Source: a virus. From it: 37,972 nt of DNA. The notes beneath the pieces were generated by a model, which did not search any database, was not told where the DNA came from, and worked only from the letters and a program-made list of their open reading frames with translations. Shown piece by piece: positions 26,696 through 37,972 of the stretch. The stretch spans positions 1 to 37,972 of the IMG/VR virus record IMGVR_UViG_3300025424_000004. One strand, 5' to 3'. Both the position numbers and the translations under genes were made by a program. Each line of letters starts with the position of its first letter. The stretch's first letter is position 1.

Positions 26696-27219
26696 GCGAG
26701 ATGCCGCAGCCTGGCGACATCGGTTTCGCACACTCTGACGGCATCTTCGGCAAACTCATCCGCTTCGGAGAGCGCATCCGCTTCGGCGAAAAACCCTCGC
26801 ACTGGAACCACGCTTTCATCGTGGACAGGGTCGTTATGGAGGGCTCTATCACCGACGGCACGGCCACGTTCAAGACCTACATCATCCAAGCGGAGCCAAC
26901 GGGCGTCACGAACGACAAGCTCATCGAGAGCGTCGGGTCGTACACGATTGTCGAGCCCACTCCCGATATGAGCCGCAAGGACATTCTGGCGTTCGCTCGA
27001 GCACAGGTCGGGAGCAAGTACGGCTGGGGCTCTATCGCCAGCGTCGCCATAGACATCATCAGCCCGAACTGGTGGCCGTCATTCCGCCGCCGTGGGACGT
27101 GGATCTGCTCCGCCCTGGTCGGCGAGGCCGTGCGCTACGGGGGCTTCCTCGCCCCGTGGCCGGACATCTACACCGTCACCCCAGCGCAACTCTTCACCGC
27201 AATAACAAACACACGCTAA
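26692..27219 (+). CDS. Permuted papain-like (YiiX/C92-type) cell-wall hydrolase candidate
   Basis: Starting at the GTG that overlaps the previous stop, the 175-residue protein opens with MPQPGDIGFAHSDG, a papain-like lead. HWNHAFIV places His40 before the Cys of WICSALVGE (Cys139), the reversed His-then-Cys order of circularly permuted NlpC/P60 enzymes. AFARAQVGSKYGWGS (100-114) is also typical. It may cut peptide or amide bonds in the wall. Together with the holin-like gene it forms a second lysis-type pair, 8 kb from the first. A strong terminator follows. Confidence 0.75.
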   Translation: MSEMPQPGDIGFAHSDGIFGKLIRFGERIRFGEKPSHWNHAFIVDRVVMEGSITDGTATFKTYIIQAEPTGVTNDKLIESVGSYTIVEPTPDMSRKDILAFARAQVGSKYGWGSIASVAIDIISPNWWPSFRRRGTWICSALVGEAVRYGGFLAPWPDIYTVTPAQLFTAITNTR

Positions 27220-27261
27220 GGTGAGAGTGTCCTCGTGACACATTACTTCCCCTCAGTAATC

Positions 27262-27310
27262 AAGCCCCCAGCCGGACTGTTATCCCAGTCGGCTGGGGGC
27301 TTTCTGCTTT
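27262..27310 (+). terminator. Strong rho-independent terminator, end of late genes
   Basis: AAGCCCCCAGCCG and CGGCTGGGGGCTT pair as a 13-bp GC-rich stem, with ACT and AGT extending it past one bulged G, and a T-rich tail follows (TTTCTGCTTT). It could terminate in both directions, since A-rich sequence precedes it. It separates late transcription from the early promoter right behind it. Confidence 0.9.
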
Positions 27311-27316
27311 ATATAC

Positions 27317-27345
27317 TTGCTACTGTCCAAACGTTGGACTACACT
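27317..27345 (+). promoter_or_regulatory. Early promoter with operator-like palindrome in the spacer
   Basis: TTGCTA (27317-27322), 17 bases, TACACT (27340-27345), then AAGGAGGAAG before the ATG at 27366. The spacer contains GTCCAA-ACG-TTGGAC (27325-27339), a perfect 6-bp-arm palindrome filling the space between the two boxes. A bound repressor there would block polymerase. A near copy lies in the promoter at 33272. Confidence 0.75.
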
Positions 27346-27365
27346 CGAGGAACAAGGAGGAAGTA

Positions 27366-27590
27366 ATGGCAATAGCAAAGGGACTGGTGCTCTCATCGTG
27401 GAACGGCTTTAACCGTGGCGATGAGGTCAAGGTGTCGAACGTTCGAGGGAAGTTCTACTTCTACTCGGTGCGCCTCGACGACAACCAGCAGCCTCTCTGG
27501 ATAACTGTCATCGGTGGCACTTGGCAACACTCCAAGTACCGCCACTTCCCCCCTGCCCTAGTCAGCGATATGAAGAAAGCGAAGCGATGA
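27366..27590 (+). CDS. Small basic protein, first early gene (74 aa)
   Basis: This is the first gene after the operator-bearing promoter, with a strong ribosome site. The product is basic and Trp/Tyr-rich (SSWNGFNRGDEVKVSNVRG, then ITVIGGTWQHSKYRH), consistent with a small beta barrel, but no family is recognised. Position suggests immediate-early expression. The stop overlaps the ATG at 27587. Confidence 0.65.
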   Translation: MAIAKGLVLSSWNGFNRGDEVKVSNVRGKFYFYSVRLDDNQQPLWITVIGGTWQHSKYRHFPPALVSDMKKAKR

Positions 27591-27847
27591 ATATTAGAGA
27601 GACACTGAACGAGTTGGGCTACAAACTGGTCGCAACCGACGAGTGGGGCGATGTCTACGGCATCAGCATCACGGGTGGAAACGCCTACGTCAGCATCTCC
27701 GAGGAGCCTGTCACTATCCAGGCTGTCAAGATGCCCGACGACGCAGAGGCCGTCACCACCGTCGTACACTTCAGCCACGCCTGCGAAGAGCTCACGGATC
27801 TACTGCGGAAGTGGAGTGATGTCACACCTGCAACTTATTCTGAGTGA
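27587..27847 (+). CDS. Unknown acidic early protein (86 aa)
   Basis: The ATG at 27587 overlaps the upstream TGA (ATGA). The frame is open earlier only as overlap. The product is a small alpha/beta protein (MNIRETLNELGYKLV, then YVSISEEPVTIQAVKM). Its 3' end overlaps the start of the HTH gene by 29 bases. The function is unknown. Confidence 0.6.
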   Translation: MNIRETLNELGYKLVATDEWGDVYGISITGGNAYVSISEEPVTIQAVKMPDDAEAVTTVVHFSHACEELTDLLRKWSDVTPATYSE

Positions 27848-27989
27848 GCGACTCGGCTACGACCTTATGGCATACGTCGAGGAAGCAAAGTCTGAGGGAA
27901 CCAGTTATCGGGAGATAGCGAAGTTCCTCACAGAAGAGACCGGCATCAAGGTCTCTAAATCAGCAGTCCACTACTGGCTGCACAACTAA
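27819..27989 (+). CDS. Small helix-turn-helix protein (56 aa)
   Basis: The ATG at 27819 gives MSHLQLILSERLGYDLMAYV then TSYREIAKFLTEETGIKVSKSAVHYWLHN in two overlapping pieces, a clear helix-turn-helix with almost nothing else. GGAAGTGGAG lies just upstream. A GTG at 27816 would add one residue. It probably binds DNA as a dimer and could be a repressor or activator of the early promoters, possibly of the operator 0.5 kb upstream. The target is not shown by sequence. Confidence 0.7.
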   Translation: MSHLQLILSERLGYDLMAYVEEAKSEGTSYREIAKFLTEETGIKVSKSAVHYWLHN

Positions 27990-28005
27990 AGAAAGAGGGA
28001 AAGTA

Positions 28006-28176
28006 ATGAAGTATCAAATCACGTTGTCGGGAGCGCAGTACGCAACCCTGATGACTTCACTGGCGTACACCGACGCCACGCTCCACGAGGGCGAGTTTCA
28101 CGACAAGGTGGAGGCACTGACCGACCACATCACCAGCACGTTCGAGCTGCTCGAGCCCGTATCGGTAGGTGCATAA
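28006..28176 (+). CDS. Small unknown protein (56 aa)
   Basis: GAGGGAAAG precedes the ATG at 28006, and the TAA overlaps the next ATG (TAATG). The product is a compact acidic alpha/beta protein (MKYQITLSGAQYATLMTSLA) with His and Glu near the middle. It has no Cys or membrane segment. It lies directly before the recombination gene. Confidence 0.6.
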   Translation: MKYQITLSGAQYATLMTSLAYTDATLHEGEFHDKVEALTDHITSTFELLEPVSVGA

Positions 28177-28700
28177 TGGCGTTCAACCTCAATGAGTACG
28201 AGCCAGTAGAAGTGCGCCTGGCTCGCTTCTGGGCCGAGCACCCAAACGGTCGAGTGCTGACCGAACTCATCCACCACGGCGAGGGACAGTTCATCGTCCG
28301 TACCGCCCTGTTCCGTGAGGGCGACAACCAGCCTTTCGCTACCGGCTACGCCGAGGAACTGGTGACTACCCGAGGCGTGAACCAGACCTCTGCCCTCGAG
28401 AACTGCGAAACCAGTTCAACGGGCCGTGCGCTGGCGAACGCTGGGTACGCCCCCAAGGGCAAGCGACCCAGCCTCGAGGAGATGCAGAAAGTCGTCCGTG
28501 CCGGTGGCAAGCCAGCAACGCCCGAACTCACGGATCTACAGAAGTCCGTCCGTGAAGAACTGCTCAAGGTCTACCCCAAGACCGACGAGCGAAAGTCGTT
28601 CCTCGAAGCCCAGACGGGTCGCCAGTTGGCAGGTCTGTACGAGCTCACCGAGGACGAGTGCAACACAATCATCAAATCCCTAACGAAAGAGGAGAAGTAA
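28176..28700 (+). CDS. Erf/Rad52-like single-strand annealing protein candidate
   Basis: The 174-residue protein contains VRLARFWAEHPNGRV, FIVRTALFRE with PFATGYAEE, and NQTSALENCETSSTGRALA followed by NAGYAPKGKRPS. This conserved block occurs in phage proteins placed next to SSB and linked to single-strand DNA pairing. The C-terminal third is a charged helical tail. The gene is coupled to SSB by TAATG, and an exonuclease of the YqaJ type occurs at 35275, the usual partner. The exact family name is uncertain. Confidence 0.6.
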   Translation: MAFNLNEYEPVEVRLARFWAEHPNGRVLTELIHHGEGQFIVRTALFREGDNQPFATGYAEELVTTRGVNQTSALENCETSSTGRALANAGYAPKGKRPSLEEMQKVVRAGGKPATPELTDLQKSVREELLKVYPKTDERKSFLEAQTGRQLAGLYELTEDECNTIIKSLTKEEK

Positions 28701-29101
28701 TGGCTGAGGCCAACATCACTCTGGTCGGCAACCTGACCCGAGACCCAGAAATCAAGTTCCTGAACACCGGAACCCCAGCAGTCAAGTTCGGCTTGGCTGT
28801 GACCAAGAAGTGGCGTGACCGCAACGGAGCCGACCAGGAGCAGACCTCGTTCTTCGACTGCTCGGCACTGGGGCCAATCGCCACCAACATCGCCGACAGT
28901 CTCCACAAGGGCAACCGTGTCGTGGTGACGGGAACGCTCGAGCAGCGCTCCTACGACGACAAGGAGGGCAACAAGCGCTCTGCTGTCGAGGTCAAGGTCG
29001 AGGCCTGTGGCCCAGACCTGCGCTTCAACACCGCCAGCGTGTCTCAGGGCCTCTCACAGCCTGCCAAGCCTCGCTACTCCGAGCCAGAGGACGCTTTCTA
29101 A
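28700..29101 (+). CDS. ssb: Single-stranded DNA-binding protein
   Basis: Starting at the ATG overlapping the previous stop, the 133-residue protein has a full OB fold: NITLVGNLTRDPEIKF, TPAVKFGLAVTKKW, SFFDCSALGPIATNIADSL and GNRVVVTGTLEQRSYDDKEG. It ends in an acidic tip, SEPEDAF, which recalls the host-SSB tip that recruits repair and replication proteins. It should coat single strands in replication and recombination. GGAGAAG precedes the start. Confidence 0.93.
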   Translation: MAEANITLVGNLTRDPEIKFLNTGTPAVKFGLAVTKKWRDRNGADQEQTSFFDCSALGPIATNIADSLHKGNRVVVTGTLEQRSYDDKEGNKRSAVEVKVEACGPDLRFNTASVSQGLSQPAKPRYSEPEDAF

Positions 29102-29376
29102 TGGCGACCACCAGCGCAGGCGTACAGGCCATTCTCGACGGCATCGTGGAGAACTACGGCGACATCGAACTCACGGCTGAGGACGCAAAGGAGGTGTACG
29201 GAGGCTCAAAGGCTGGCAAGGTGAAAGACCTGGCACAGCACAACCTGCTTCAGTACGCCCTGCTTCACGCCCACCTACAGATCCAAGGGCTCGTGTCGCA
29301 CATCGAGAACCTGAACCACCCCAACCGAGCGCAGCGTCGAGCTGCCAAGAAGCAGGGCCTCGTCCTGCCGAAGTAG
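29101..29376 (+). CDS. Unknown helical protein ending in a NRAQRRAAKK motif
   Basis: Coupled to SSB by TAATG. The 91-residue protein is helical with a basic C-terminus containing NRAQRRAAKKQG, a motif seen at the ends of many actinophage proteins of unknown role. It closes this operon, as a strong terminator follows 25 bases later. Confidence 0.65.
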   Translation: MATTSAGVQAILDGIVENYGDIELTAEDAKEVYGGSKAGKVKDLAQHNLLQYALLHAHLQIQGLVSHIENLNHPNRAQRRAAKKQGLVLPK

Positions 29377-29400
29377 TCCCGTTCCCCCGAACGATGAGAG

Positions 29401-29428
29401 ACCGGCCTCTTCGGGGGCCGGTTTCTTT
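29401..29428 (+). terminator. Rho-independent terminator with TTCG tetraloop
   Basis: ACCGGCCTC (29401-29409) pairs with GGGGCCGGT (29414-29422), one G-T wobble, around the very stable loop TTCG. TTTCTTTAT follows as the T tract. It ends the SSB operon just before a new promoter. Confidence 0.92.
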
Positions 29429-29433
29429 ATGTC

Positions 29434-29462
29434 TTGACACTCGACTCGAGGCGCACTATCCT
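29434..29462 (+). promoter_or_regulatory. Strong sigma70-like promoter
   Basis: TTGACA (29434-29439), 17 bases, TATCCT (29457-29462). The -35 box is consensus. The spacer starts with CTCGA-C-TCGAG (29440-29450), a perfect palindrome that may be an operator. The predicted start, about 29469, coincides with the first base of a perfect hairpin. Confidence 0.85.
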
Positions 29463-29468
29463 GACCCT

Positions 29469-29506
29469 GTCGGCAAAGAGCCGACGTTCCTGAGGAGGAA
29501 GAAATG
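29469..29506 (+). promoter_or_regulatory. 5' leader: terminal hairpin plus shared ribosome-site element
   Basis: GTCGGC (29469-29474) and GCCGAC (29480-29485) form a 6-bp stem at the expected transcript start. TTCCTGAGGAGGAAGAAATG (29487-29506) follows. This element also occurs before 33343 and 35275. TTCCT and AGGAA can pair, which would partly hide the Shine-Dalgarno. Confidence 0.8.
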
Positions 29507-29698
29507 AAAAAGCGCAACATCAGCATCCGCAAGGGCCGTGACATCACCCTGTTCGCAGGCGTCGGGACGTTCCTGGCAATCGAACTCTACGGCTTCGGCT
29601 ACTACTGGAACGAAGCACAGATGTACCTCTGGGCTATTGGTGGCGGCCTGCTCGCCTCTGTCGTGACGGCTGGCTACCTCGCAGTCGTCTCAGAATGA
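29504..29698 (+). CDS. Small two-span membrane protein (64 aa)
   Basis: First gene behind the consensus promoter and the shared leader, so probably highly expressed. After a basic start (MKKRNISIRKGR) come two hydrophobic segments (ITLFAGVGTFLAIELYGFGY and YLWAIGGGLLASVVTAGYLA). A small membrane protein made early could alter the host envelope or exclude other phages. No family is recognised. Its stop overlaps the first WhiB start. Confidence 0.7.
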   Translation: MKKRNISIRKGRDITLFAGVGTFLAIELYGFGYYWNEAQMYLWAIGGGLLASVVTAGYLAVVSE

Positions 29699-30057
29699 AC
29701 TGCTACGGAAAGACCGACATCTTCTTCACCAAAAAGAAGTTCCGAGAGGCTAAGGAACTCTGCCGGAGTTGCCCGAAACTACAAGAGTGCCGAGACTGGG
29801 GGCTCCGCTACGAGGAGTTCGGCGTCTGGGGTGGGCTAGATCCAGGCCAGCGCAAGCGAGTGCGCAGGGAGCAAGGCATCAAGTTCAGCGCTGTGCTCCC
29901 TAGTGCTAAGGCCGGCCACGCTAACTGCGGCACGAACGCCGGATACCACGCCCTGCTCAAAGCCAGCGAGAACCGCCAAGTGTGGTGCTCGAAGTGCCGA
30001 GAGGCGCACAGGGTCTACGTCGCCGAGCGCAACTGGCTACGAGCTCAGAGGCGATGA
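29695..30057 (+). CDS. whiB: WhiB-like iron-sulfur regulator with extra Cys/His module (1)
   Basis: The 120-residue protein has the four Cys of a WhiB 4Fe-4S site (C3, C23, C26, C32), the turn GVWGG (43-47) and a basic segment QRKRVRREQ. WhiB proteins act with the primary sigma factor and are limited to Actinobacteria and their phages. Beyond residue 70 is an additional module with H75, C78 (HANCGTNAGYHALL) and C98, C101, H105 (CSKCREAH), likely another metal site. The spacing C3-x19-C23 is short. It overlaps the membrane gene upstream and its paralogue downstream. Confidence 0.88.
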   Translation: MNCYGKTDIFFTKKKFREAKELCRSCPKLQECRDWGLRYEEFGVWGGLDPGQRKRVRREQGIKFSAVLPSAKAGHANCGTNAGYHALLKASENRQVWCSKCREAHRVYVAERNWLRAQRR

Positions 30058-30500
30058 TGTTCGACAACCCACCCTGTCAGGGCAAGACCGACCTGTTCTA
30101 TCCGCCACTAGTGGAGTTCGACAGCCCCCACCACGTCTCGGAACTGAGAGAGCGCAAAGAGGCCGCCGAAGCCGAGGCTAAGGCTATCTGCCAGACCTGC
30201 CCGTACGTCGAGCCCTGCCTCGAGGCCGCACTGGACGGAGAGACCTACGGCATCTGGGGCGGCAAGAGCCCTGCCGAACGTCGAGAGATCCGCATCGAGC
30301 GCAAACTCATCATCCGTCGAGGGCCGTACGGCAACAACCACAATAACTGCGGAACCGAGGCCGGATACCAGGCACTCGCCAAAGAGGTGCAGGCCCGTGG
30401 AGGCTCCGCAGCCGGTCATCGGGTCAAGTGTAAGGCCTGCCGTCGGGCGCACAGTGCTCGGGTCATAGAACTGCGAGAGAAGAGGAAGCAGGAACAATGA
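30054..30500 (+). CDS. whiB: WhiB-like iron-sulfur regulator with extra Cys/His module (2)
   Basis: The 148-residue paralogue starts at the ATG overlapping the first WhiB stop. A second ATG follows directly, so Met2 is possible. Iron-sulfur Cys are C8, C46, C49 and C55, GIWGG is at 66-70, and a basic RREIRIERK segment follows. The same extra module is present with H96, C99 (HNNCGTEAGYQALA) and C126, C129, H133 (CKACRRAH). The two genes look like a duplication that has diverged, with different loop lengths between Cys residues. Possible dimerisation or competition for the host sigma factor is inference. Confidence 0.88.
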   Translation: MMFDNPPCQGKTDLFYPPLVEFDSPHHVSELRERKEAAEAEAKAICQTCPYVEPCLEAALDGETYGIWGGKSPAERREIRIERKLIIRRGPYGNNHNNCGTEAGYQALAKEVQARGGSAAGHRVKCKACRRAHSARVIELREKRKQEQ

Positions 30501-30946
30501 GCCTCGAAGCACAAGCCCTTGTCTGGGGGCTCGAGATACCCAGCGCTCACAAGTTCGTGGCTATGGCGCTGGCCGACCACGCCCACAAGGACGGCACGGG
30601 AGCACGGCCTAGTCAGTCCACCCTGGCAACCAAAGTCTCGATGAGCTCGAGGCACGTCAGGCGCATCCTGAGCGACCTCGTCGAGTGGAAAATCATCGAG
30701 GTCGAGCGACCCTCGGGACAGCACCGAGCGACTACTTACCGCTTCGTAAGTATGACCCCAGACCGGACACCCGTGTCCACCCTGAAAAAATCCAGACCGG
30801 ACATTTCAGCATCCAGACCGGACATATGCGACACTCAGACCGGACACCCGTGTCCTACTAACCATAAAGAACCGTTATTAGAACCCCTGCCGAACTTGCA
30901 CGAACTAGCGGAGCAAGCCCGACGTATTCTTAGAGGAGGAAGATGA
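30497..30946 (+). CDS. HTH replication-initiator-like protein
   Basis: The 149-residue protein has a winged helix-turn-helix in its first half (SLEAQALVWGLEIPSAHKFV, then SQSTLATKVSMSSRHVRRIL). The second half is low complexity with repeated RPDI units (SRPDISASRPDICDTQTG), encoded by DNA that carries four iteron-like repeats and an AT-rich tail. This arrangement resembles lambda O-type initiators that bind repeats inside their own gene. It overlaps the upstream WhiB stop and the HNH gene downstream. It probably opens the origin and recruits host enzymes, since no phage helicase is seen. Confidence 0.65.
   Translation: MSLEAQALVWGLEIPSAHKFVAMALADHAHKDGTGARPSQSTLATKVSMSSRHVRRILSDLVEWKIIEVERPSGQHRATTYRFVSMTPDRTPVSTLKKSRPDISASRPDICDTQTGHPCPTNHKEPLLEPLPNLHELAEQARRILRGGR
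30759..30890 (+). other. Putative replication origin: iterons and AT-rich segment
   Basis: CAGACCGGACA occurs four times (30759-30769, 30793-30803, 30814-30824, 30836-30846). In copies one and four the repeat runs into GGACAC-CC-GTGTCC (30765-30778 and 30842-30855), a perfect palindrome. An AT-rich stretch follows (about 30856-30886, including ACCATAAAGAACCGTTATTA) that could melt. Its place inside the HTH initiator gene is like lambda ori in gene O. The repeats also encode repeated RPDI, so protein-level repetition is the alternative. Confidence 0.65.
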
Positions 30947-31506
30947 AAGTACGACCAAAGCACCTACAGCCCACCCCGAGGAGTGAGCAGGTCAAGAAGC
31001 GAGCCCAGAGCGCTATGCGCCACGTCTCTGTCTGCTCGTACTGCCACCGCCGAGGCGAGCCGTTCGTAGTCAAGGGCGACCCTGACGGCAACTTCTGGTG
31101 TATGGATCACATCGTTCCTCTGCACAAGTGCGGCGAGGACGCTCTTCACAACCTCACGAAGTCCTGCTGGGCCTGCAACGAGAAGAAAGGCGCATCGCTC
31201 TGGCAGCGCCGACTCGAGGGCAAGGAAATCGAGACCGCTAACAACAAGTGCCTGGTGTGGGACATCGACACGCTGCGAGCCGCTAACCCTCGCTTCGCCA
31301 AATACCTGAGCTGGGTGACCGCAGAAAAGGCCAAGCGCAAAAAGTCACGGCAGCCACGTCAATCCCAAGCCAAGCCCAAAAAACCCAAGTGGGTCACTAT
31401 CGAACAAATAACAACCGAGCCGAAAGCAAAGCCCAAAAATAAGATGCGGCACTTCAACGACCCAAGGCCGAGCGTGTTCAAGGGGCAAATCAAACTTGTG
31501 AAGTAG
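30943..31506 (+). CDS. HNH endonuclease with long basic tail
   Basis: The 187-residue protein has zinc Cys C31, C34 (CSYC), the MDHIVPLH metal motif (D55, H56), HNLTKSCWACNEKKG with N70, and C75, C78. The last 70 residues are Lys/Arg/Pro-rich with PKKPK- and KAKPKNK-type runs and probably bind DNA. HNH nucleases in phages act as homing, packaging or recombination enzymes. Being between the initiator and nuclease genes, a replication or recombination role is plausible. GAGGAGGAAG precedes the ATG. Confidence 0.82.
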   Translation: MKVRPKHLQPTPRSEQVKKRAQSAMRHVSVCSYCHRRGEPFVVKGDPDGNFWCMDHIVPLHKCGEDALHNLTKSCWACNEKKGASLWQRRLEGKEIETANNKCLVWDIDTLRAANPRFAKYLSWVTAEKAKRKKSRQPRQSQAKPKKPKWVTIEQITTEPKAKPKNKMRHFNDPRPSVFKGQIKLVK

Positions 31507-31515
31507 TGTTAGGAC

Positions 31516-31908
31516 GTGAAACTCGCCACCGAGGACAACCCACAGAACCCTGACGACTTCCTCGCCTATCTGTGCCACCTCTGGCGTCACGACATCTCGG
31601 TCAATAACAACCCCGTGAAAGCGCAGCTCACAATCATCGGATCCAAAGACCCAATGGTCATCGAGTGGACATCGAAGCACTACTCCCAAGCCCAGCACTG
31701 GCTACCTGGTCGCTGTGACGGCTGTACGGCGTGGGTCATCGAGAGAACCGAGTCCTACTGGGGAGCCCACCCCCACTTCTGCTTCAAGTGCTTAGCGTGG
31801 ACTATGGACTACTTCGAGCGCAACTCCAAGTGGCCCGAGGGCAACTGGTGGCCGCACGAAACGTTCGCCCTCGATGAGCTGCCCGAGGAGGGCGATGAAG
31901 AGGTCTAG
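31516..31908 (+). CDS. Trp/His-rich zinc-binding protein (130 aa)
   Basis: The GTG start follows TTAGGA, nine bases after the HNH gene. The product has CDGC (about residues 68-71) and CFKC (about 89-92) with nearby His, suggesting a zinc ribbon, and an unusual number of Trp (WLPGRCDGCTAWVIE, EGNWWPHETF). The C-terminus is acidic. No family is recognised. It overlaps the second HNH gene by 14 bases. Confidence 0.65.
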   Translation: MKLATEDNPQNPDDFLAYLCHLWRHDISVNNNPVKAQLTIIGSKDPMVIEWTSKHYSQAQHWLPGRCDGCTAWVIERTESYWGAHPHFCFKCLAWTMDYFERNSKWPEGNWWPHETFALDELPEEGDEEV

Positions 31909-32239
31909 GCTCAACCCCGTCTCGAAGAAGCGCCAGACCCTCAACGTGGCTCGGCGTGTGTTCGTGCGCAAACTGCTCGAGGAGCGCCCCCAGTGCGAGG
32001 CCCAGATACCCCACGTCTGCTCCAACCACGCCACCGATGTCCACGAGATTATGACCCGAGCCAGGGGAGGCTCCATTCTCGACGAGGACAACTGCCTCTG
32101 CCTCTGTCGGCGCTGTCACTCGTTCATCACCGAGAACCCCAGTTTCAGCCAGGAGCACGGCTTCACCGTTCACTCGTGGGCAACGAGTGCGGATCTAATC
32201 GCAGCAGCACGAGCAAGGGAGATATATGGCCGAGAGTAG
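31895..32239 (+). CDS. Small HNH endonuclease-like protein
   Basis: From the ATG at 31895 (overlapping the previous stop) the 114 residues show a basic lead (MKRSRLNPVSKKR), C34 and C42, then DVHEIMTRARGGS (H50, E51), N66, C71, C74 (CRRCH) and N81. This fits the compact HNH fold with a zinc site. It is quite different from the HNH protein 0.4 kb upstream, so this is not a simple duplication. A recombination or restriction-like role is possible. Confidence 0.75.
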   Translation: MKRSRLNPVSKKRQTLNVARRVFVRKLLEERPQCEAQIPHVCSNHATDVHEIMTRARGGSILDEDNCLCLCRRCHSFITENPSFSQEHGFTVHSWATSADLIAAARAREIYGRE

Positions 32240-32396
32240 AGAACGTCGCTTCAAGATAGGTCAGGTGGACGAGTTCGTCTGCTGGCACAAGTCCCCCTAC
32301 CGGACACCTCGCAAGCGCAAGAAAGCAATCAAGGCTAAGGGCAAGATCAATCCGTTCACCGCAATCGTCGAAGCGTGGCTAGGGAATGACGACTGA
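32226..32396 (+). CDS. Small basic protein (56 aa)
   Basis: It overlaps the HNH gene by 14 bases and the VRR-NUC gene by 11, so it lies tightly within the nuclease string. The product is basic (PYRTPRKRKKAIKAKGKIN) and may bind nucleic acid. The family is unknown. Confidence 0.6.
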   Translation: MAESRERRFKIGQVDEFVCWHKSPYRTPRKRKKAIKAKGKINPFTAIVEAWLGNDD

Positions 32397-32721
32397 CCCC
32401 CTCTTCGGCAAAGCGGCGTGGAAATCCTCGATGCTCGAGAAAGAGTTTCACGAGAACGTCGCCCACCTAATGCGGCTCAACGGCTGGTCGGTCTACTCCG
32501 TCCCCGACTCTCGACGGGTCAGCCTGGCAGGGTATCCCGACATCACCGCTTGGCGTGGCACTCGGCTCATCTTCGCTGAACTGAAGCGAGAGAAAGGGCG
32601 CACGTCCCCAGCCCAAGACGAGGTGCTGGCAGAGCTGAGAAATATCCCCTGCGCCGAGGTCTATATATGGAAGCCGAGTGACTGGGATGAAATAGAGTTA
32701 ATAACGAAAAGGGAGAGATAA
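32386..32721 (+). CDS. VRR-NUC domain nuclease
   Basis: The 111-residue protein has the VRR-NUC (PD-D/ExK) pattern: E20, NGWSVYSVPDSRR, GYPDITAWRG with D52, FAELKREKGRTSPAQDEVLA with E65, K67 and Q77. Such stand-alone phage domains are thought to cut branched or flap DNA. It sits with two HNH genes in the replication region. GGGAGAG precedes the next gene, coupled by TAATG. Confidence 0.88.
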   Translation: MTTDPLFGKAAWKSSMLEKEFHENVAHLMRLNGWSVYSVPDSRRVSLAGYPDITAWRGTRLIFAELKREKGRTSPAQDEVLAELRNIPCAEVYIWKPSDWDEIELITKRER

Positions 32722-32792
32722 TGCTTTCAGCAATTCTGTGGACAATCGTGCTGTTCGCATCACTGTACAACCTCTTCGGGTCGAGGGACTAA
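32721..32792 (+). CDS. Single-span micro membrane protein (23 aa)
   Basis: The ATG overlaps the nuclease TAA and the TAA overlaps the next ATG, with AGGGAGAG upstream. The peptide is almost one transmembrane helix (MLSAILWTIVLFASLYNLFG) ending in SRD. Precise coupling on both sides supports translation. It may be a membrane-active regulator or toxin-like peptide, which is speculation. Confidence 0.55.
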   Translation: MLSAILWTIVLFASLYNLFGSRD

Positions 32793-33241
32793 TGAAGAAC
32801 GCAGACCGGATGATCCGTGACCGCAAGATAGTCGCCAAGGCGCTCGACAAACTGACCGACGGCGTGATGCTCGACCTCTGCCGACGAGCTGGGACTCGTG
32901 CTGTCCGTGACTCGGGTGGCGAACGTGGCCCACGAGGCAAGGGCTCCTACTCCGACCCCACCCTGGCGGCGGTCATCCGCCTCGAAGAAGCACGAGTGGC
33001 CGACCCCGTGTTCGACGCTGTGCGAGACATCAACCGACTGCTCGATGAAATGGCTCGGATGTCGATGAAACTCGACGACCTCGTGCGCTTCGTTCAGACC
33101 GGCAAGGAGCGAGCGAAGCAGGCCACGCTCTCGGAGTGCAAAGTCTGTGGGCGCATCGTCGAGAACACCCCAGCAGACCGGATCCGTTCGGGAATGTGCG
33201 GAGCCTGCTACCAGTCGCAACGTCGCAAAGCCCAGCAATAG
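32792..33241 (+). CDS. Unknown protein with C-terminal zinc finger (149 aa)
   Basis: The ATG at 32792 overlaps the micro membrane gene stop. The product is helical for about 115 residues and ends with CKVCGRIV and CGACYQSQRRK (about 116-145), a four-Cys finger. A central Gly-rich segment (SGGERGPRGKGSYSD) may be a loop. It is the last gene before the operator-bearing promoter at 33272. No family is recognised. A transcription-related role is one possibility. Confidence 0.65.
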   Translation: MKNADRMIRDRKIVAKALDKLTDGVMLDLCRRAGTRAVRDSGGERGPRGKGSYSDPTLAAVIRLEEARVADPVFDAVRDINRLLDEMARMSMKLDDLVRFVQTGKERAKQATLSECKVCGRIVENTPADRIRSGMCGACYQSQRRKAQQ

Positions 33242-33271
33242 CAAGGAAATCAAAGTTTCTGAAAAAGATAC

Positions 33272-33301
33272 TTGACTGTCCAAACGCTGGACACTTATAG
33301 T
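33272..33301 (+). promoter_or_regulatory. Early promoter with the second operator-like palindrome
   Basis: TTGACT (33272-33277), 18 bases, TATAGT (33296-33301). The spacer carries TGTCCA-AACGC-TGGACA (33277-33293). Its core GTCCAAACGCTGGAC (33278-33292) differs at one base from that at 27325-27339. The sequence around it is AT-rich. The same palindrome in two promoter spacers is strong evidence of a shared repressor site. Confidence 0.85.
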
Positions 33302-33308
33302 TAAGACA

Positions 33309-33345
33309 TCGGCAACACCGCCGAGTTCCTGAGGAGGAAGAAATG
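33309..33345 (+). promoter_or_regulatory. 5' leader: terminal hairpin plus shared ribosome-site element
   Basis: TCGGC (33309-33313) and GCCGA (33320-33324) pair at the predicted transcript start. One G then separates them from TTCCTGAGGAGGAAGAAATG (33326-33345). The architecture is the same as at 29469-29506, including the single G between the modules (there after a GCCGAC arm). Confidence 0.8.
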
Positions 33346-33657
33346 AAAGCAACTTGGTATAAGAGCAACGGAAGCATCTACCACACTGGCGAAGTCGTGC
33401 CAGTCACGATTGCCGAAGTCACGGCAGCCCTGAAGGGCGCACGTTGCAAGGCTGAAGCATCTGAGCGTGGCGGAGACATCTACGTCACCTACGCCGATGC
33501 GGATTACATCAAGGTAATGAAGTGCCTCGCTACCGCAAACTTCAACACCACGCTGAGCAAGGACTTCGACGGCTTCCGTATCAACGGCCTGCAGTTGGAC
33601 ATCACCCCTGAGCAACTCGCCTACAACCTTGAGGACATCGCACGGGTGGGGGCATAA
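33343..33657 (+). CDS. Unknown early protein (104 aa)
   Basis: This is the first gene behind the second operator promoter and shared leader, so probably strongly and early expressed. The product is a small alpha/beta protein (MKATWYKSNGSIYHTGEVVP; ISVTYADADY-like region YVTYADADYIKVMK). It lacks motifs of known enzymes. The third to fifth codons after ATG differ from the other two shared-leader genes, so only the leader is conserved. TAATG couples it to the next gene. Confidence 0.65.
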   Translation: MKATWYKSNGSIYHTGEVVPVTIAEVTAALKGARCKAEASERGGDIYVTYADADYIKVMKCLATANFNTTLSKDFDGFRINGLQLDITPEQLAYNLEDIARVGA

Positions 33658-33827
33658 TGAAGCGCACCGCTTACGCCTTTGCCAACTGGGACAAGAAGTT
33701 GGCTATCTGGCGCATCTACTGCCCTGAGTGCTGGGTCACTGCTGGCAACAAGAAAGCCGACGCCGAACTGCTCGACGGAAACGGCGACGTGGTCGGCTGT
33801 GTCACCTGCGGAAAGGCTCTGCGATGA
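33657..33827 (+). CDS. Small zinc-ribbon protein (56 aa)
   Basis: The ATG overlaps the upstream TAA, and the TGA overlaps the next ATG. Two pairs, CPEC (about 22-25) and CVTCG (about 48-51), give a full four-Cys ribbon. It is one of several such microproteins in this genome. The target is unknown. Confidence 0.65.
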   Translation: MKRTAYAFANWDKKLAIWRIYCPECWVTAGNKKADAELLDGNGDVVGCVTCGKALR

Positions 33828-34093
33828 ACTACCGAGTAATCAACACCAACCGCATCCCGTTCGTCTACGCCTACGCCTCGCTGAAGTTCCAGGACGAGTT
33901 CAAGCGGATCTACGTCATCGAGTACGTCCGGCCACGGGGCGAGGAATACTTCGGTCTCTTCGAGGCTGACACTATCAACGGCGTGAACCACGAGCCGACG
34001 CTGGTGGCGTACTACAGCGTTCTAGAACACGCTGTGTTCGGCGTCGAGTGGCGCTCGAAGGAGCTCATCAAGGAGGGCTGGAATGTCCTATAA
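33824..34093 (+). CDS. Unknown protein rich in aromatic residues (89 aa)
   Basis: From the ATG at 33824, coupled to the zinc-ribbon gene. The product is a small alpha/beta protein with many Tyr, Phe and Val (NYRVINTNRIPFVYAYASL, EEYFGLFEADTI). The earlier part of the open frame overlaps the previous gene and is not coding. It overlaps the HTH gene by 11 bases. The family is not recognised. Confidence 0.6.
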   Translation: MNYRVINTNRIPFVYAYASLKFQDEFKRIYVIEYVRPRGEEYFGLFEADTINGVNHEPTLVAYYSVLEHAVFGVEWRSKELIKEGWNVL

Positions 34094-34364
34094 CCTCTTC
34101 GACCTGCCCCCCTACGAGGACACGATGACGAGCATCCTCGCCGCCGAGTCAATGGTCGGCCACACCGCCCGACTCCGTGACCGAGTGCTCGAAGCACTAC
34201 GCCAGCAGCCGATGACCGACGAGCACATCGCCGAGCACCTGAGCCTCGCACCGAACACCGCTCGACCCCGTCGCATCGAACTGACCCGAGACGGCCTCGT
34301 CCGTCAGGTCGGCGAAGCAAAGACCAAGTCGGGCCGCCGAGCAATCCTCTGGGGCGCAGTATGA
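34083..34364 (+). CDS. Winged helix-turn-helix protein (93 aa)
   Basis: Residues about 30-90 read as a winged helix: DRVLEALRQQPMTDEHIAEH, SLAPNTARPRRIELTRDGLV, and a wing with KTKSGRRAILW. GGAGG lies eight bases upstream of the ATG. It may regulate an early promoter or act in DNA metabolism. No Cys or effector domain is seen. Confidence 0.7.
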   Translation: MSYNLFDLPPYEDTMTSILAAESMVGHTARLRDRVLEALRQQPMTDEHIAEHLSLAPNTARPRRIELTRDGLVRQVGEAKTKSGRRAILWGAV

Positions 34365-34513
34365 GCCAGACCCATATCAAGATGACGTGGGAAGTGTTCG
34401 AGAAACTAATGAACGGCCTAAAGGCTGGTCAATCCGACCACTTCTACTGGCTCGACACTTGGGAACTGGCGCACAGGGAAGAAGTGCCAACCGACGAGGA
34501 GGAGGAAGAGTGA
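34361..34513 (+). CDS. Small acidic protein (50 aa)
   Basis: The ATG overlaps the upstream TGA, and the TGA overlaps the next GTG. The product ends in a run of Glu (PTDEEEEE) whose codons, GAGGAGGAGGAAGAG, double as the ribosome site of the secreted gene downstream. This dual use may explain the acidic end. No family is recognised. Confidence 0.55.
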   Translation: MSQTHIKMTWEVFEKLMNGLKAGQSDHFYWLDTWELAHREEVPTDEEEEE

Positions 34514-34860
34514 TCCGTAAGTCCCTCGTAGTCCTGTGCCTGGCACTCCCCACGATGCAGACCAGCGCCACGGCAGTCGCTCCCGAGCACCGCTACGTCG
34601 CCCCTGTCCACCACCTCGTCTCTGCCGAGATGATGCGCAAGTGGACTCGGGTCTACATCTGCGAGACCCACAACTGGGCGCAACGTGGCCACTACGCCGG
34701 TGGGCTGGGCATCACCCAGTGGAACTGGGAGCACCACGGCGGCCTGCGCTTCGCTCGAGCCCCGTACCTAGCGAAGCCCGAGCAGCAGGTCTACGTCGCC
34801 ACCGTCATCCAGCACGGACTCCCCGTCCCTGACCAAACCTCGACCTGTAAGGACTGGTAA
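34510..34860 (+). CDS. Secreted Rpf/transglycosylase-like muralytic protein
   Basis: Starting at the GTG overlapping the previous stop, with GAGGAGGAGGAAG upstream, the 116-residue protein has a signal peptide (MIRKSLVVLCLALP, cleavage possibly after AVA at 22-24). It then has a compact Rpf-like domain: RVYICETHNW with candidate catalytic Glu52, YAGGLGITQWNW (62-73), HGGLRFA (76-82) and a C-terminal Cys113 that may pair with Cys51, as in Rpf proteins. It would cut glycan strands outside the membrane. It lies among early regulatory genes, far from both lysis cassettes. Rpf proteins can revive dormant actinobacteria, so effects on host state are possible. Confidence 0.75.
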   Translation: MIRKSLVVLCLALPTMQTSATAVAPEHRYVAPVHHLVSAEMMRKWTRVYICETHNWAQRGHYAGGLGITQWNWEHHGGLRFARAPYLAKPEQQVYVATVIQHGLPVPDQTSTCKDW

Positions 34861-34862
34861 TC

Positions 34863-35216
34863 GTGGCTGATATGTTCACCGTCGCTAACGTCCAGAACGG
34901 CATCGCCAAGAGCCTGAAGCGCATTGACGAGCTCGTGGACGAGATTGCCAAGGCCGGAGACGACGCCGCCCACTTCGAGGCCGACTTCAAGACCGCCTAC
35001 GCCAAAGCACGGCTACAGATCCGTGCGCTGGCTAAGGAGAAGCTGACAGTGGACGAGGTGGCAGACCGAGCTCACGGGCTCTGCGAAGCCGAGTTCCTCG
35101 CCTACAAGATTGCCGAGAACCGGCTGACCACCTGCCGAGAGGCGCTACGAGCGAGCCAGGCACGGCTCGACGGCCTGCGCTCTCTGCTGTCCAGTATCAA
35201 AGTGGCCACTAACTAG
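34863..35216 (+). CDS. Helical coiled-coil-like protein near exonuclease (117 aa)
   Basis: The GTG at 34863 is used. An ATG at 34872 is an alternative. The product is almost all helical with heptad-like spacing (KRIDELVDEIAKAGDDAAHF, AENRLTTCREALRASQARLD). Proteins of this look are frequent next to phage recombination genes, possibly as partners, but no activity is known. The gap after it holds the promoter for the exonuclease. Confidence 0.65.
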   Translation: MADMFTVANVQNGIAKSLKRIDELVDEIAKAGDDAAHFEADFKTAYAKARLQIRALAKEKLTVDEVADRAHGLCEAEFLAYKIAENRLTTCREALRASQARLDGLRSLLSSIKVATN

Positions 35217-35235
35217 TGATGTCACACACTATGAT
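35216..35235 (+). promoter_or_regulatory. Promoter -10 with adjacent palindrome before exonuclease
   Basis: TATGAT (35230-35235) is a good -10 box. No clear -35 is seen at the right distance, so an activator may be needed. GTGA-TG-TCAC (35216-35225) lies directly upstream, in the same relative place as the palindromes in the other early promoters. Confidence 0.55.
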
Positions 35236-35257
35236 TACAGTTCGCAGTACCAACCTA

Positions 35258-35277
35258 TTCCTGAGGAGGAAGAAATG
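35258..35277 (+). promoter_or_regulatory. Shared ribosome-site element, third copy
   Basis: TTCCTGAGGAGGAAGAAATG is identical to the copies at 29487-29506 and 33326-33345. All three continue with AAA. Here no GC-rich 5' hairpin precedes it. The self-pairing TTCCT/AGGAA arms around GAGG are retained. Confidence 0.85.
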
Positions 35278-36297
35278 AAAGTAGTGACCAGGACTGACAT
35301 ACTCAGTCACGATGAATGGCTCGAAGCCCGAAGCAAGGGTCTGGGAGGCTCCGACGCCGGAACTATCCTCGGCACGAACCCCTACAAGGGTCGCCTCGAG
35401 CTCTGGCTTGAGCGGACCGGACGCATCACCAACACGTTCCAGGGCAATGAGGCAACCCGTCTCGGACAGGCGTTCGAGCGCCCCGTAGCGGAAATCTACG
35501 CCCAGATGATTGCCCCTCAAGGGCTGGCAGTCGTCGCCTGGCCGGTGCTCCTACAGGGCAACATAGAGTTCCAGTTGGCCAACGTGGACTTCTTCATCTG
35601 CCGAGTGAGCGACCTCAACGTCCACGAGTTCGAGCTGGGCAAGGTGAACGACTATCAGGGAGCCGACCTGCCCGTGGGAACCTGCGGCATCCTCGAGGTC
35701 AAGACCACCGGCCTCTCGGGTCGAGGCAACTCTCGGGCGTGGGAGAACGGCCAAGTCCCCTCCGGCTACTACGCACAGGGCTGTCACTACGCCAGCATCA
35801 CCGGCATCCGAGACGTGACGTTCGTGTGCCTCATCGGTGGGCAAGGTATCGTGACCCGTGACGTGACCTACATCGAGGCCGAAATCGACGCACTCGTGGC
35901 AGCCGAGGTCGAGTTCTGGCATCAGATCCACAGCGACATCGAGCCCCAAGCCACCGAGAACGACCTCGACGCCCTCAAGACCCTCTACCCCGAGAGCACC
36001 GACGAAGTAGTCGAGGCTGACGAAATAGTCCTCGGGCTCTACAAGGAATACAAGGCCAAGAAAGCCGTGGCCGACGAGACCGACGAGGAACTGAAGCGTC
36101 TCCGTGCGCAGATTGAGCAGGTCATCGGGAGCGCCCAGGCTGTTGCCTACGAGGGTGAAATCCTCTACACCTACAAGTCCAACAAGGCTTCGGAGACGTT
36201 CGACTCCAAGGCTTTCAAGGAAGCCCACCCCGACCTCGCAGCTCAGTTCACCAAGACCAAGGCAGGCGCACGAGTTCTCCGGCTGGTGGCAGAGTGA
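35275..36297 (+). CDS. YqaJ-type recombination exonuclease
   Basis: The 340-residue protein has the lambda-exonuclease/YqaJ motifs: WLEARSKGLGGSDAGTILG (15-33), a conserved ANVDFF with D105, GILEVKTT with E141 and K143, and YYAQGCHY with Q168. It should resect double-stranded ends 5' to 3', giving single strands for the Erf-like protein at 28176. The C-terminal third is a charged coiled coil (KEYKAKKAVADETDEELKRL) followed by a small tail. It uses the shared leader. A GTGA overlap joins it to the methyltransferase. Confidence 0.9.
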   Translation: MKVVTRTDILSHDEWLEARSKGLGGSDAGTILGTNPYKGRLELWLERTGRITNTFQGNEATRLGQAFERPVAEIYAQMIAPQGLAVVAWPVLLQGNIEFQLANVDFFICRVSDLNVHEFELGKVNDYQGADLPVGTCGILEVKTTGLSGRGNSRAWENGQVPSGYYAQGCHYASITGIRDVTFVCLIGGQGIVTRDVTYIEAEIDALVAAEVEFWHQIHSDIEPQATENDLDALKTLYPESTDEVVEADEIVLGLYKEYKAKKAVADETDEELKRLRAQIEQVIGSAQAVAYEGEILYTYKSNKASETFDSKAFKEAHPDLAAQFTKTKAGARVLRLVAE

Positions 36298-37847: not shown

Positions 37848-37972
37848 TTGAACTACGAGCCGACACCGAGGGCTTCCACGCCTCTCTCAAGGACGCACAC
37901 CAGGCGATTACGGAGCACCGCCAGGCAACCTGCCCCCACGCCTACGAGGTGCTCGACTTCGACGGCAACCCC
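37844..37972 (+). CDS. Zinc-ribbon-like small protein, 5' part (continues at 1)
   Basis: The GTG at 37844 overlaps the membrane-gene stop (GTGA), and the reading frame continues across the contig end to the stop at 199-201. The full product is about 76 residues, opening MIELRADTEGFHASLKD with the first Cys of a zinc site in CPHAYE. Together with the repeat it shows that the contig closes into a circle. Confidence 0.75.
   Translation, partial: MIELRADTEGFHASLKDAHQAITEHRQATCPHAYEVLDFDGNP
37874..37972. repeat. Terminal direct repeat, right copy (contig overlap)
   Basis: Exact copy of bases 1-99. It falls within the 5' part of the gene starting at 37844, and the reading frame is kept when the ends are joined. 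This supports a circular map. It does not by itself show whether the virion DNA is permuted or has cohesive ends. Confidence 0.95.

Follow-up and report, generated by a model that had tools for sequence, protein, structure and literature searches.

The early region of an uncultivated phage genome, the IMG/VR virus record IMGVR_UViG_3300025424_000004 (analysed as the complete record of 37,972 bases on one strand; hereafter, the window), raises the question of whether palindromes at its promoters are repressor sites and, if so, which protein reads them. A first-pass annotation had pointed to palindromic letters at 27317, 29434, 33272 and 35216, placed in the same way each time within or beside a promoter, and had proposed a set of repressible early promoters with at least two different sites. 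A helix-turn-helix (HTH) protein encoded at 27819 (hereafter, HTH27819), a second at 34083 and two WhiB proteins were named as candidate regulators. All four letter patterns are indeed present. Comparison with related genomes identifies those at 27317 and 33272 as one 17-bp operator, TGTCCA-N5-TGGACA, placed within the -35/-10 spacer, and HTH27819 is the best candidate for its reader. The proposal of two or more different operators in this genome did not hold, as the palindrome at 29434 is most likely due to chance and a different element is found at 35216. The features are collected in Table 1.

One operator at two early promoters

Near relatives of the window were drawn from IMG/VR. Relative B is UViG 025417 together with two UViGs identical over the compared stretches, C is 006101, D is 025372 with its close copies, and W denotes the window; further relatives are named by G or L labels or by UViG number. 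From the window alone the operator is only suggestive, as two matches with up to three mismatches are found against a shuffle mean of 0.20, and at least two were seen in 3 of 100 shuffles. Across 18 pieces including the window (313,680 bases), exact GTCCA-N5-TGGAC occurs 16 times (shuffle mean 0.35, largest count 1 in 20 shuffles), and a search of 948,364 bases, comprising the window and partly overlapping loci, found no copy with the arms 4 or 6 bases apart. The site at the second promoter is kept as TGTCCAAATGTTGGACA in B and TGTCCAACTGATGGACA in C, and a scan of the window and 97 loci for GTCCA-N5-TGGAC shows that B and C also have it where their first early operon begins; L026 has two sites, and L024 and L025 have one apiece. 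The D sites at the two promoters read TGTCCAACGATAGGACT and TGTCCTACCGTTGGACA. Overall, the operator arms are constant among relatives and the centre is variable. Every printed operator sits in a TTG-led promoter with a spacer of 16–19 bp across relatives, a range that is partly built in since the promoter-context listing kept only sites with TTG and such a spacer. The distance of the dyad from the -35 and -10 boxes differs by several bases between relatives, which argues that the operator is constrained separately from the promoter.

Chance palindromes in promoter spacers would account well for 29434 and poorly for the two operator sites. The promoter at 29434 is kept in relatives (TTGACT-18-TAGAGT in B, TTGACA-18-TAACTT in C and TTGACG-18-TAGCGT in D), whereas its palindrome CTCGACTCGAG is absent from all three and was rejected as an operator in this genome; when the 29 bases of this stretch are shuffled, a palindrome of that length appears about 10% of the time. 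The palindromes at the equivalent place in G014 (shuffle P 0.08) and 9502 (shuffle P 0.01) are unrelated to it, and in 21137 the promoter at that position carries the true operator. For 27317 and 33272, by contrast, relatives have the operator at the corresponding promoters and exact copies are in excess, so that sequence comparison refutes chance for these two of the four; as a general explanation its probability is close to nil.

Broader scans were judged by context. A promoter-operator-leader pattern run over viral contigs returned 26 stretches, of which 18 were assigned to the operator family (L100, L101 and L122 being counted because they are located in B contigs) and eight were set aside as chance (L103, L106, L107, L109, L114, L118, L120 and L121). 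A wider operator scan returned 49 stretches; 31 of these loci were printed and judged, and four (L205, L225, L228 and L229) look like chance. L196 and L200, among 10 examined loci from a box-based search, were set aside on the same grounds. Seven GTCCA-N5-TGGAC copies in G018 (an 84-kb contig, L143–L149) were rejected, the shared promoter and leader context being absent; they mostly have AT-rich centres and look like an unrelated repeated motif.

At the same promoter, some relatives differ in the sixth base of the arm. This gives an A class (TGTCCA..TGGACA), a T class (TGTCCT..AGGACA; contigs 20717, 25391 and 21519, recovered through the TGATGTCACA box described below) and a C class (TGTCCC..GGGACA; two copies in 9502, recovered in the same way). 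Sites agree in class within the multi-site genomes W, B, C, G017 and G009 (all A class) and 9502 (C class), and the two sites of G014 are identical in sequence.

Directly upstream of the -35 box of the second promoter lies an AT-rich stretch (approximately 33232–33271 in the window), with counterparts in B, C, D, G014, G017 and G007, and several relatives have a further CCCAGYAATNNCAAGGG-like element. This stretch or element could be a UP element or belong to a WhiB-assisted promoter. Ahead of another leader, G009 (L131, 4592–4630) has a third, degenerate operator and, after it, a second partial dyad.

A candidate reader of the operator

The AlphaFold2 model of HTH27819 (mean pLDDT 96) has four predicted helices, of which the last spans residues 47–55. 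All Pfam matches are below threshold, the best being HTH_32 and HTH_33. The nearest solved folds are the HTH domains of a small terminase, the ISCth4 transposase and GcrA, none with a high Z-score (best 6.7, for the small-terminase HTH; 5.0 for a cluster A2 mycobacteriophage repressor), and Foldseek gave no neighbour at E below 0.001. These folds bear on a different reading of the palindromes, namely as sites of a MerR-like activator working on an over-long spacer. MerR-family sites likewise lie between -35 and -10, in promoters with a spacer of 19–20 bp. The two window spacers are shorter (17 and 18 bp), those of relatives span 16–19 bp in a listing that admitted none longer, and the nearest folds are of the kinds just named. 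We consider a MerR-like activator very unlikely.

HTH27819 travels with the operator. Among 95 loci (L003–L097) it is found in 11 (nine UViGs), nine of these with the exact operator and two (L019 and L020, of D type) with a site at the corresponding promoter that has two mismatches. In a table of 31 contigs, several rows of which are near-copies (25723, 25437 and 25398; 553 and 21137), 27 have a printed operator, and HTH27819 is present in 17 of these. The other ten (G017, 20717, 25391, 32676_865, 13285, 25389_432, 22602, 32676_835, 25411 and 3375) are also without 27366, the first early gene, which indicates that these pieces end short of that operon. G007 has HTH27819, and its operator, seen in two scans, was lost to a filter in this table; G026 and G027 have neither. 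As in repressor-operator control of phage early genes, the dyad overlaps the core promoter and is accompanied by a phage-encoded protein of DNA-binding type.

The recognition helix of HTH27819 also follows the operator class, with [AT]-V-x-[YN]-W alongside TGTCCA, S-V-H-R-W alongside TGTCCC, and S-[VL]-H-L-W mostly alongside TGTCCT or mixed sites. Two contigs are mixed: in D, A-type residues go with A/T-mixed arms at each of the two sites, and in G020, S-type residues go with an A/A site and a mixed one. If D is counted as A and G020 as non-A, four of 54 gapless HTH27819 columns separate the classes, three of them in helix 47–55 (window residues 49, 52 and 55), against 3 of 635 columns in seven other proteins with 15–16 taxa (Fisher P 0.001). 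When both contigs are left out, the counts are 5 of 54, including the same three, and 13 of 635 (P 0.01). These column P values assume independent columns and hence overstate the contrast.

Other phage proteins could read the operator instead. The gene at 34083 lies within the operon under operator 2 and occurs in 21 of 24 contigs examined, but it was not found in the operator-bearing G007 and G009, nor in the available pieces of 25723. Its likely recognition stretch, read by eye as LAPNTARPRRIEL, is the same in W (A class), 9502 (C class) and 20717 (T class), and 1 of its 88 columns separates the classes. WhiB genes accompany all nine loci with the exact operator, but are present as well in loci without it (L007, L009–L011 and L015), and 0 or 1 of 43 WhiB columns is class-separating in a test weakened by two paralogs per genome. 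The product of 27366 equals HTH27819 in operator co-occurrence across the 95 loci, so co-occurrence alone does not single out the regulator; it matches no DNA-binding family (DUF7246 falls just below the cut-off) and was not found in G020. We regard it as unlikely that one of these proteins is the reader. Among the first-pass candidates, co-occurrence and the class-following residues favour HTH27819, subject to the labelling of the mixed contigs, and 34083 is disfavoured.

A host transcription factor might also read the site, the phage early operons being wired into a host regulon. A scan of prokaryotes (one genome per species, 84,980 species) returned 22 matches, near a rough chance figure of about 25 (estimated, not computed). 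They are scattered over unrelated phyla, with two in Streptomyces, and lie mostly in GC-rich stretches without promoter-like context. In one match, from a Nostoc contig (L185), TGTCCAAAATATGGAC directly follows TTGACA and precedes an AGGAGG that resembles a Shine-Dalgarno sequence. The scan gave no sign of a host regulon or of a prophage with the operator, within the limits of a pattern that demanded CTTG, TGTCCA and AGGAGG and that other layouts would escape. Arm base 6 varies between related phages, which also speaks against a host factor, and we consider this explanation quite unlikely.

Several observations count against HTH27819 as the repressor, beside the equal co-occurrence of 27366. 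The labels of D and G020 were assigned after the helices had been seen. With both labelled A, one of 54 HTH27819 columns, outside the recognition helix, separates the classes against 10 of 635 (P 0.6), and the enrichment disappears; the strength of the class-residue link hinges on these two contigs. Separating columns are also present in proteins with fewer taxa (11 of 125 in 28176 and 5 of 199 in 35275). A tree built from six further early proteins (16 taxa), some nodes of which are weakly supported, requires three changes of the A/non-A label, and as few changes arise in 2.65% of label shuffles, so that ancestry explains part of the class pattern. Unlike arms occur at one or more sites of D, G020, 25723 and 553/21137 and at the single site of 32218, and the first-operon sites of G022, G008 and G007 have 2–3 mismatches. 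Contig 20045 encodes a remote HTH27819 homologue with no operator in the available piece, and fragment G016 has the operator and no relatives of the window's early proteins. Moreover, the comparative evidence is compatible with either sign of regulation, repression or activation. Because of the relabelling outcome, our confidence in HTH27819 as a repressor acting through the spacer operator was lowered slightly, from fairly high to moderate.

A putative second promoter class and leader hairpins

At 35216, GTGA-TG-TCAC had been read as a palindrome upstream of TATGAT, with no clear -35 box. The letters and the lack of a clear -35 stand, but the conserved unit is TGATGTCACA, exactly nine bases and TANNNT. 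Under this box reading the window -10 would be TACAGT, and TATGAT (35230–35235) falls inside the nine bases. The dyad GTGATGTCAC was rejected as an operator: C, G014, 9502, 20717, 21519, G007 and B have C or T in place of its outer G, which W and 25391 keep, and the symmetry is lost in B and D. The common placement and the repressible spacer palindrome claimed for all four sites therefore apply, by comparison, at 27317 and 33272, where relatives keep the palindrome, and not at 29434 or 35216, where the boxes are kept and the palindrome is lost, largely so at the latter; such a loss is the pattern that the first-pass annotation had itself named as refuting.

The same 313,680 bases contain ATGTCACA in 19 forward copies and a single reverse one, where shuffles average 5.55 with a maximum of 11. 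Followed by TANNNT after nine bases it occurs 10 times forward, and not at all at distances of 5–8 or 10–13 bases, in reverse or in 20 shuffles; the ten matches are not all independent, C and G027 being identical there. W, B, C, D, G014, 9502 and 25723 have a further box over the HTH27819 start codon. Its sequence there is invariably ATGTCACACCT, and nine bases past it stands TATTCT, TTTAAT, CATAAT or TCTAAT. In G022, G008 and G007 the box is at the end of the HTH27819 gene, and in G020 just past it. G009, 21137, 553 and 32218 have two-mismatch matches only, one of which (G009 8862) precedes a Shine-Dalgarno sequence. No clear -35 box is seen at the box promoters. Since the box is invariant across operator classes, it appears to be read by a factor other than that of the operator, and it may recruit an activator. 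A host site of MtrA- or CRP-like type is another conceivable reading of TGATGTCACA.

In the E-type contigs L008–L011 the stretch around the box promoter is closely similar to C and the window, in phages that are otherwise diverged, and the first 45 residues of the exonuclease are identical to those of the window. This similarity may reflect recent exchange or a recombination hot spot.

Downstream of several of these promoters, a short hairpin is followed by CTGAGGAGGA. In the window and relatives such leaders stand at several early genes, with a stem that varies, a loop that is often AA-led, and then TTCCTGAGGAGGA; a role as an mRNA-stability or translation element is possible. The mean longest stem in 23 hand-picked leaders is 5.7 pairs against 4.2 in shuffles, with several pair types per position. 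The shuffle fraction is at most 0.05 in seven of the 23, and D2 and G020 fall below their own shuffle means, so selection for a hairpin is suggestive only. No Rfam model matched at gathering scores over 27200–35400.

Table 1. Promoters, sites, hairpins and regulator candidates in the early region of the window
Feature	Coordinates	Strand	Basis
Terminator-like hairpin upstream of early promoter 1	27262–27302	+	Inner part 27283–27298 listed by a scan; longer stem read from sequence
Early promoter 1: TTGCTA (27317–27322), 17-bp spacer, TACACT (27340–27345)	27317–27345	+	Read from sequence and relatives; not in consensus-promoter scan list
Operator 1, TGTCCAAACGTTGGACT, in promoter spacer	27324–27340	+	Palindrome scan, comparison
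Box-type promoter 1 (proposed): TGATGTCACA (27817–27826), N9, TATTCT (27836–27841); overlaps HTH27819 gene start	27817–27841	+	Comparison
HTH27819, 56-residue HTH protein, proposed repressor; class-following residues A49, Y52, H55	27819–27989	+	Co-occurrence, AlphaFold2 model, alignment
Promoter TTGACA-17-TATCCT ahead of WhiB genes; spacer palindrome 29440–29450	29434–29462	+	Consensus scan, relatives
Leader hairpin GTCGGC-AAAGA-GCCGAC before TTCCTGAGGAGGAAGAAATG	29469–29485	+	Hairpin listing, relatives
Early promoter 2: TTGACT (33272–33277), 18-bp spacer, TATAGT (33296–33301)	33272–33301	+	Consensus scan, relatives
Operator 2, TGTCCAAACGCTGGACA; left arm overlaps last base of -35 box	33277–33293	+	Palindrome scan, comparison
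Leader hairpin TCGGC-AACACC-GCCGA	33309–33324	+	Relatives
93-residue winged-HTH-like protein, regulator candidate, disfavoured	34083–34364	+	Profile searches, column test
Box-type promoter 2: TGATGTCACA (35217–35226), N9, TACAGT (35236–35241); upstream of YqaJ exonuclease gene 35275	35217–35241	+	Comparison

Proposed mechanism and comparison with known systems

It is reasonably probable that HTH27819 acts through the spacer operator to repress both the operon that encodes it and the one at 33272, the box promoters being separate. The two early promoters, of host-sigma type, would each have one dyad operator filling the -35/-10 spacer. HTH27819, encoded by the third gene of the operon under operator 1, would bind as a dimer to two 6-bp half-sites 11 bp apart, and the bound protein would occupy the spacer and block RNA polymerase. 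As HTH27819 accumulates, the first early operon would shut off both itself and the 33272 operon in a negative feedback, and the ssb/recombination genes and the YqaJ exonuclease gene would be transcribed from the box promoters, with no dependence on the operator. The binding, dimerisation, repression rather than activation and timing in this scheme are what we infer from the comparisons.

In seven phage records, most or perhaps all of which apart from the window may be incomplete, no integrase (PF00589), no resolvase (PF00239) and no HTH_3 domain (PF01381) was found over cut-off, with one sub-threshold HTH_3 match in G022. The tyrosine or serine integrase expected beside a temperate-phage immunity repressor and the HTH_3 domain of CI/Xre-type repressors were thus not found in these records, and a lytic timer appears more likely than lysogenic immunity. 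The class pattern does resemble the immunity groups of temperate phages, and HTH27819 may for this reason be a superinfection-exclusion factor. On this doubtful extension, apparently virulent freshwater actinophages would have switched repressor-operator specificity more than once, through one arm base and two or three helix residues, and HTH27819 would, beyond internal timing, shut the early operons of incoming phages of like class.

The window genome is probably complete, because it has an exact direct terminal repeat of 99 bases (1–99 and 37874–37972); its IMG/VR listing carries no completeness value despite this repeat. The left part encodes terminase, head protease and tape measure proteins, and the early block of small genes from 27366 onward includes ssb, the two WhiB proteins at 29695 and 30054, the YqaJ exonuclease and a DNA methylase. 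WhiB proteins are an established marker of actinobacteria, and their genes point to an actinobacterial host. A link of WhiB to such hosts is also given in a passage of PMC10202952. No close cultured phage relative was found by megablast, and protein searches gave remote matches only. No tRNA genes were found, and a sigma factor (PF04542) was found in none of seven phage records. The best-ranked matches of a literature search held no report of the operator or the box in a phage, by which absence from print is not shown.

With two operator promoters, a second promoter class and a candidate repressor, this is a first regulatory map for this group of uncultivated freshwater actinophages, and the natural operator classes with their recognition helices form a ready test set for specificity change in a very small HTH protein. 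In layout, the box promoters resemble the middle promoters of T4, where a MotA box near -30 stands in for the -35, with a defined spacing to a sigma-type -10. The MotA box described in PMC2988021 differs in sequence and lies 12 ± 1 bp from the -10, whereas TGATGTCACA lies 9 bp from it. The leaders are reminiscent of the SAS/ESAS elements of cluster K mycobacteriophages, in which, according to parts of PMC3203893, a leader sequence is repeated at several actinophage gene starts with inverted repeats upstream. The ESAS repeats are 17 bp long and were judged by those authors not to pair as mRNA hairpins; unlike them, the leaders here are short hairpin-forming stretches with varying stems of about 4–7 pairs in most, and they were not assigned to ESAS.

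The operator itself shares half-sites TGTCCAA/TTGGACA with the EilR operator eilOc, where they stand in reverse order, TTGGACA-CG-TGTCCAA (from an excerpt of PMC6127294); no relation is implied. Similar in arrangement is the gp33 repressor of mycobacteriophage BPs, whose operator OR occupies the same place in the promoter PR and includes a 12-bp palindrome as part of the site. As described in sections of PMC4557955, BPs is temperate with integration-dependent immunity, and its operator has two half sites with a variable spacer, whereas here a single 17-bp dyad of other sequence is paired with a 56-residue HTH protein and no integrase was found in the seven records. Cluster A mycobacteriophages offer a likeness in that related repressors, which there prefer cognate sites, go with a site consensus that shifts between relatives; their stoperators, in the account given in part of PMC6550527, are asymmetric and number 20–30 per genome, in contrast to the two or three symmetric promoter sites per genome seen here.

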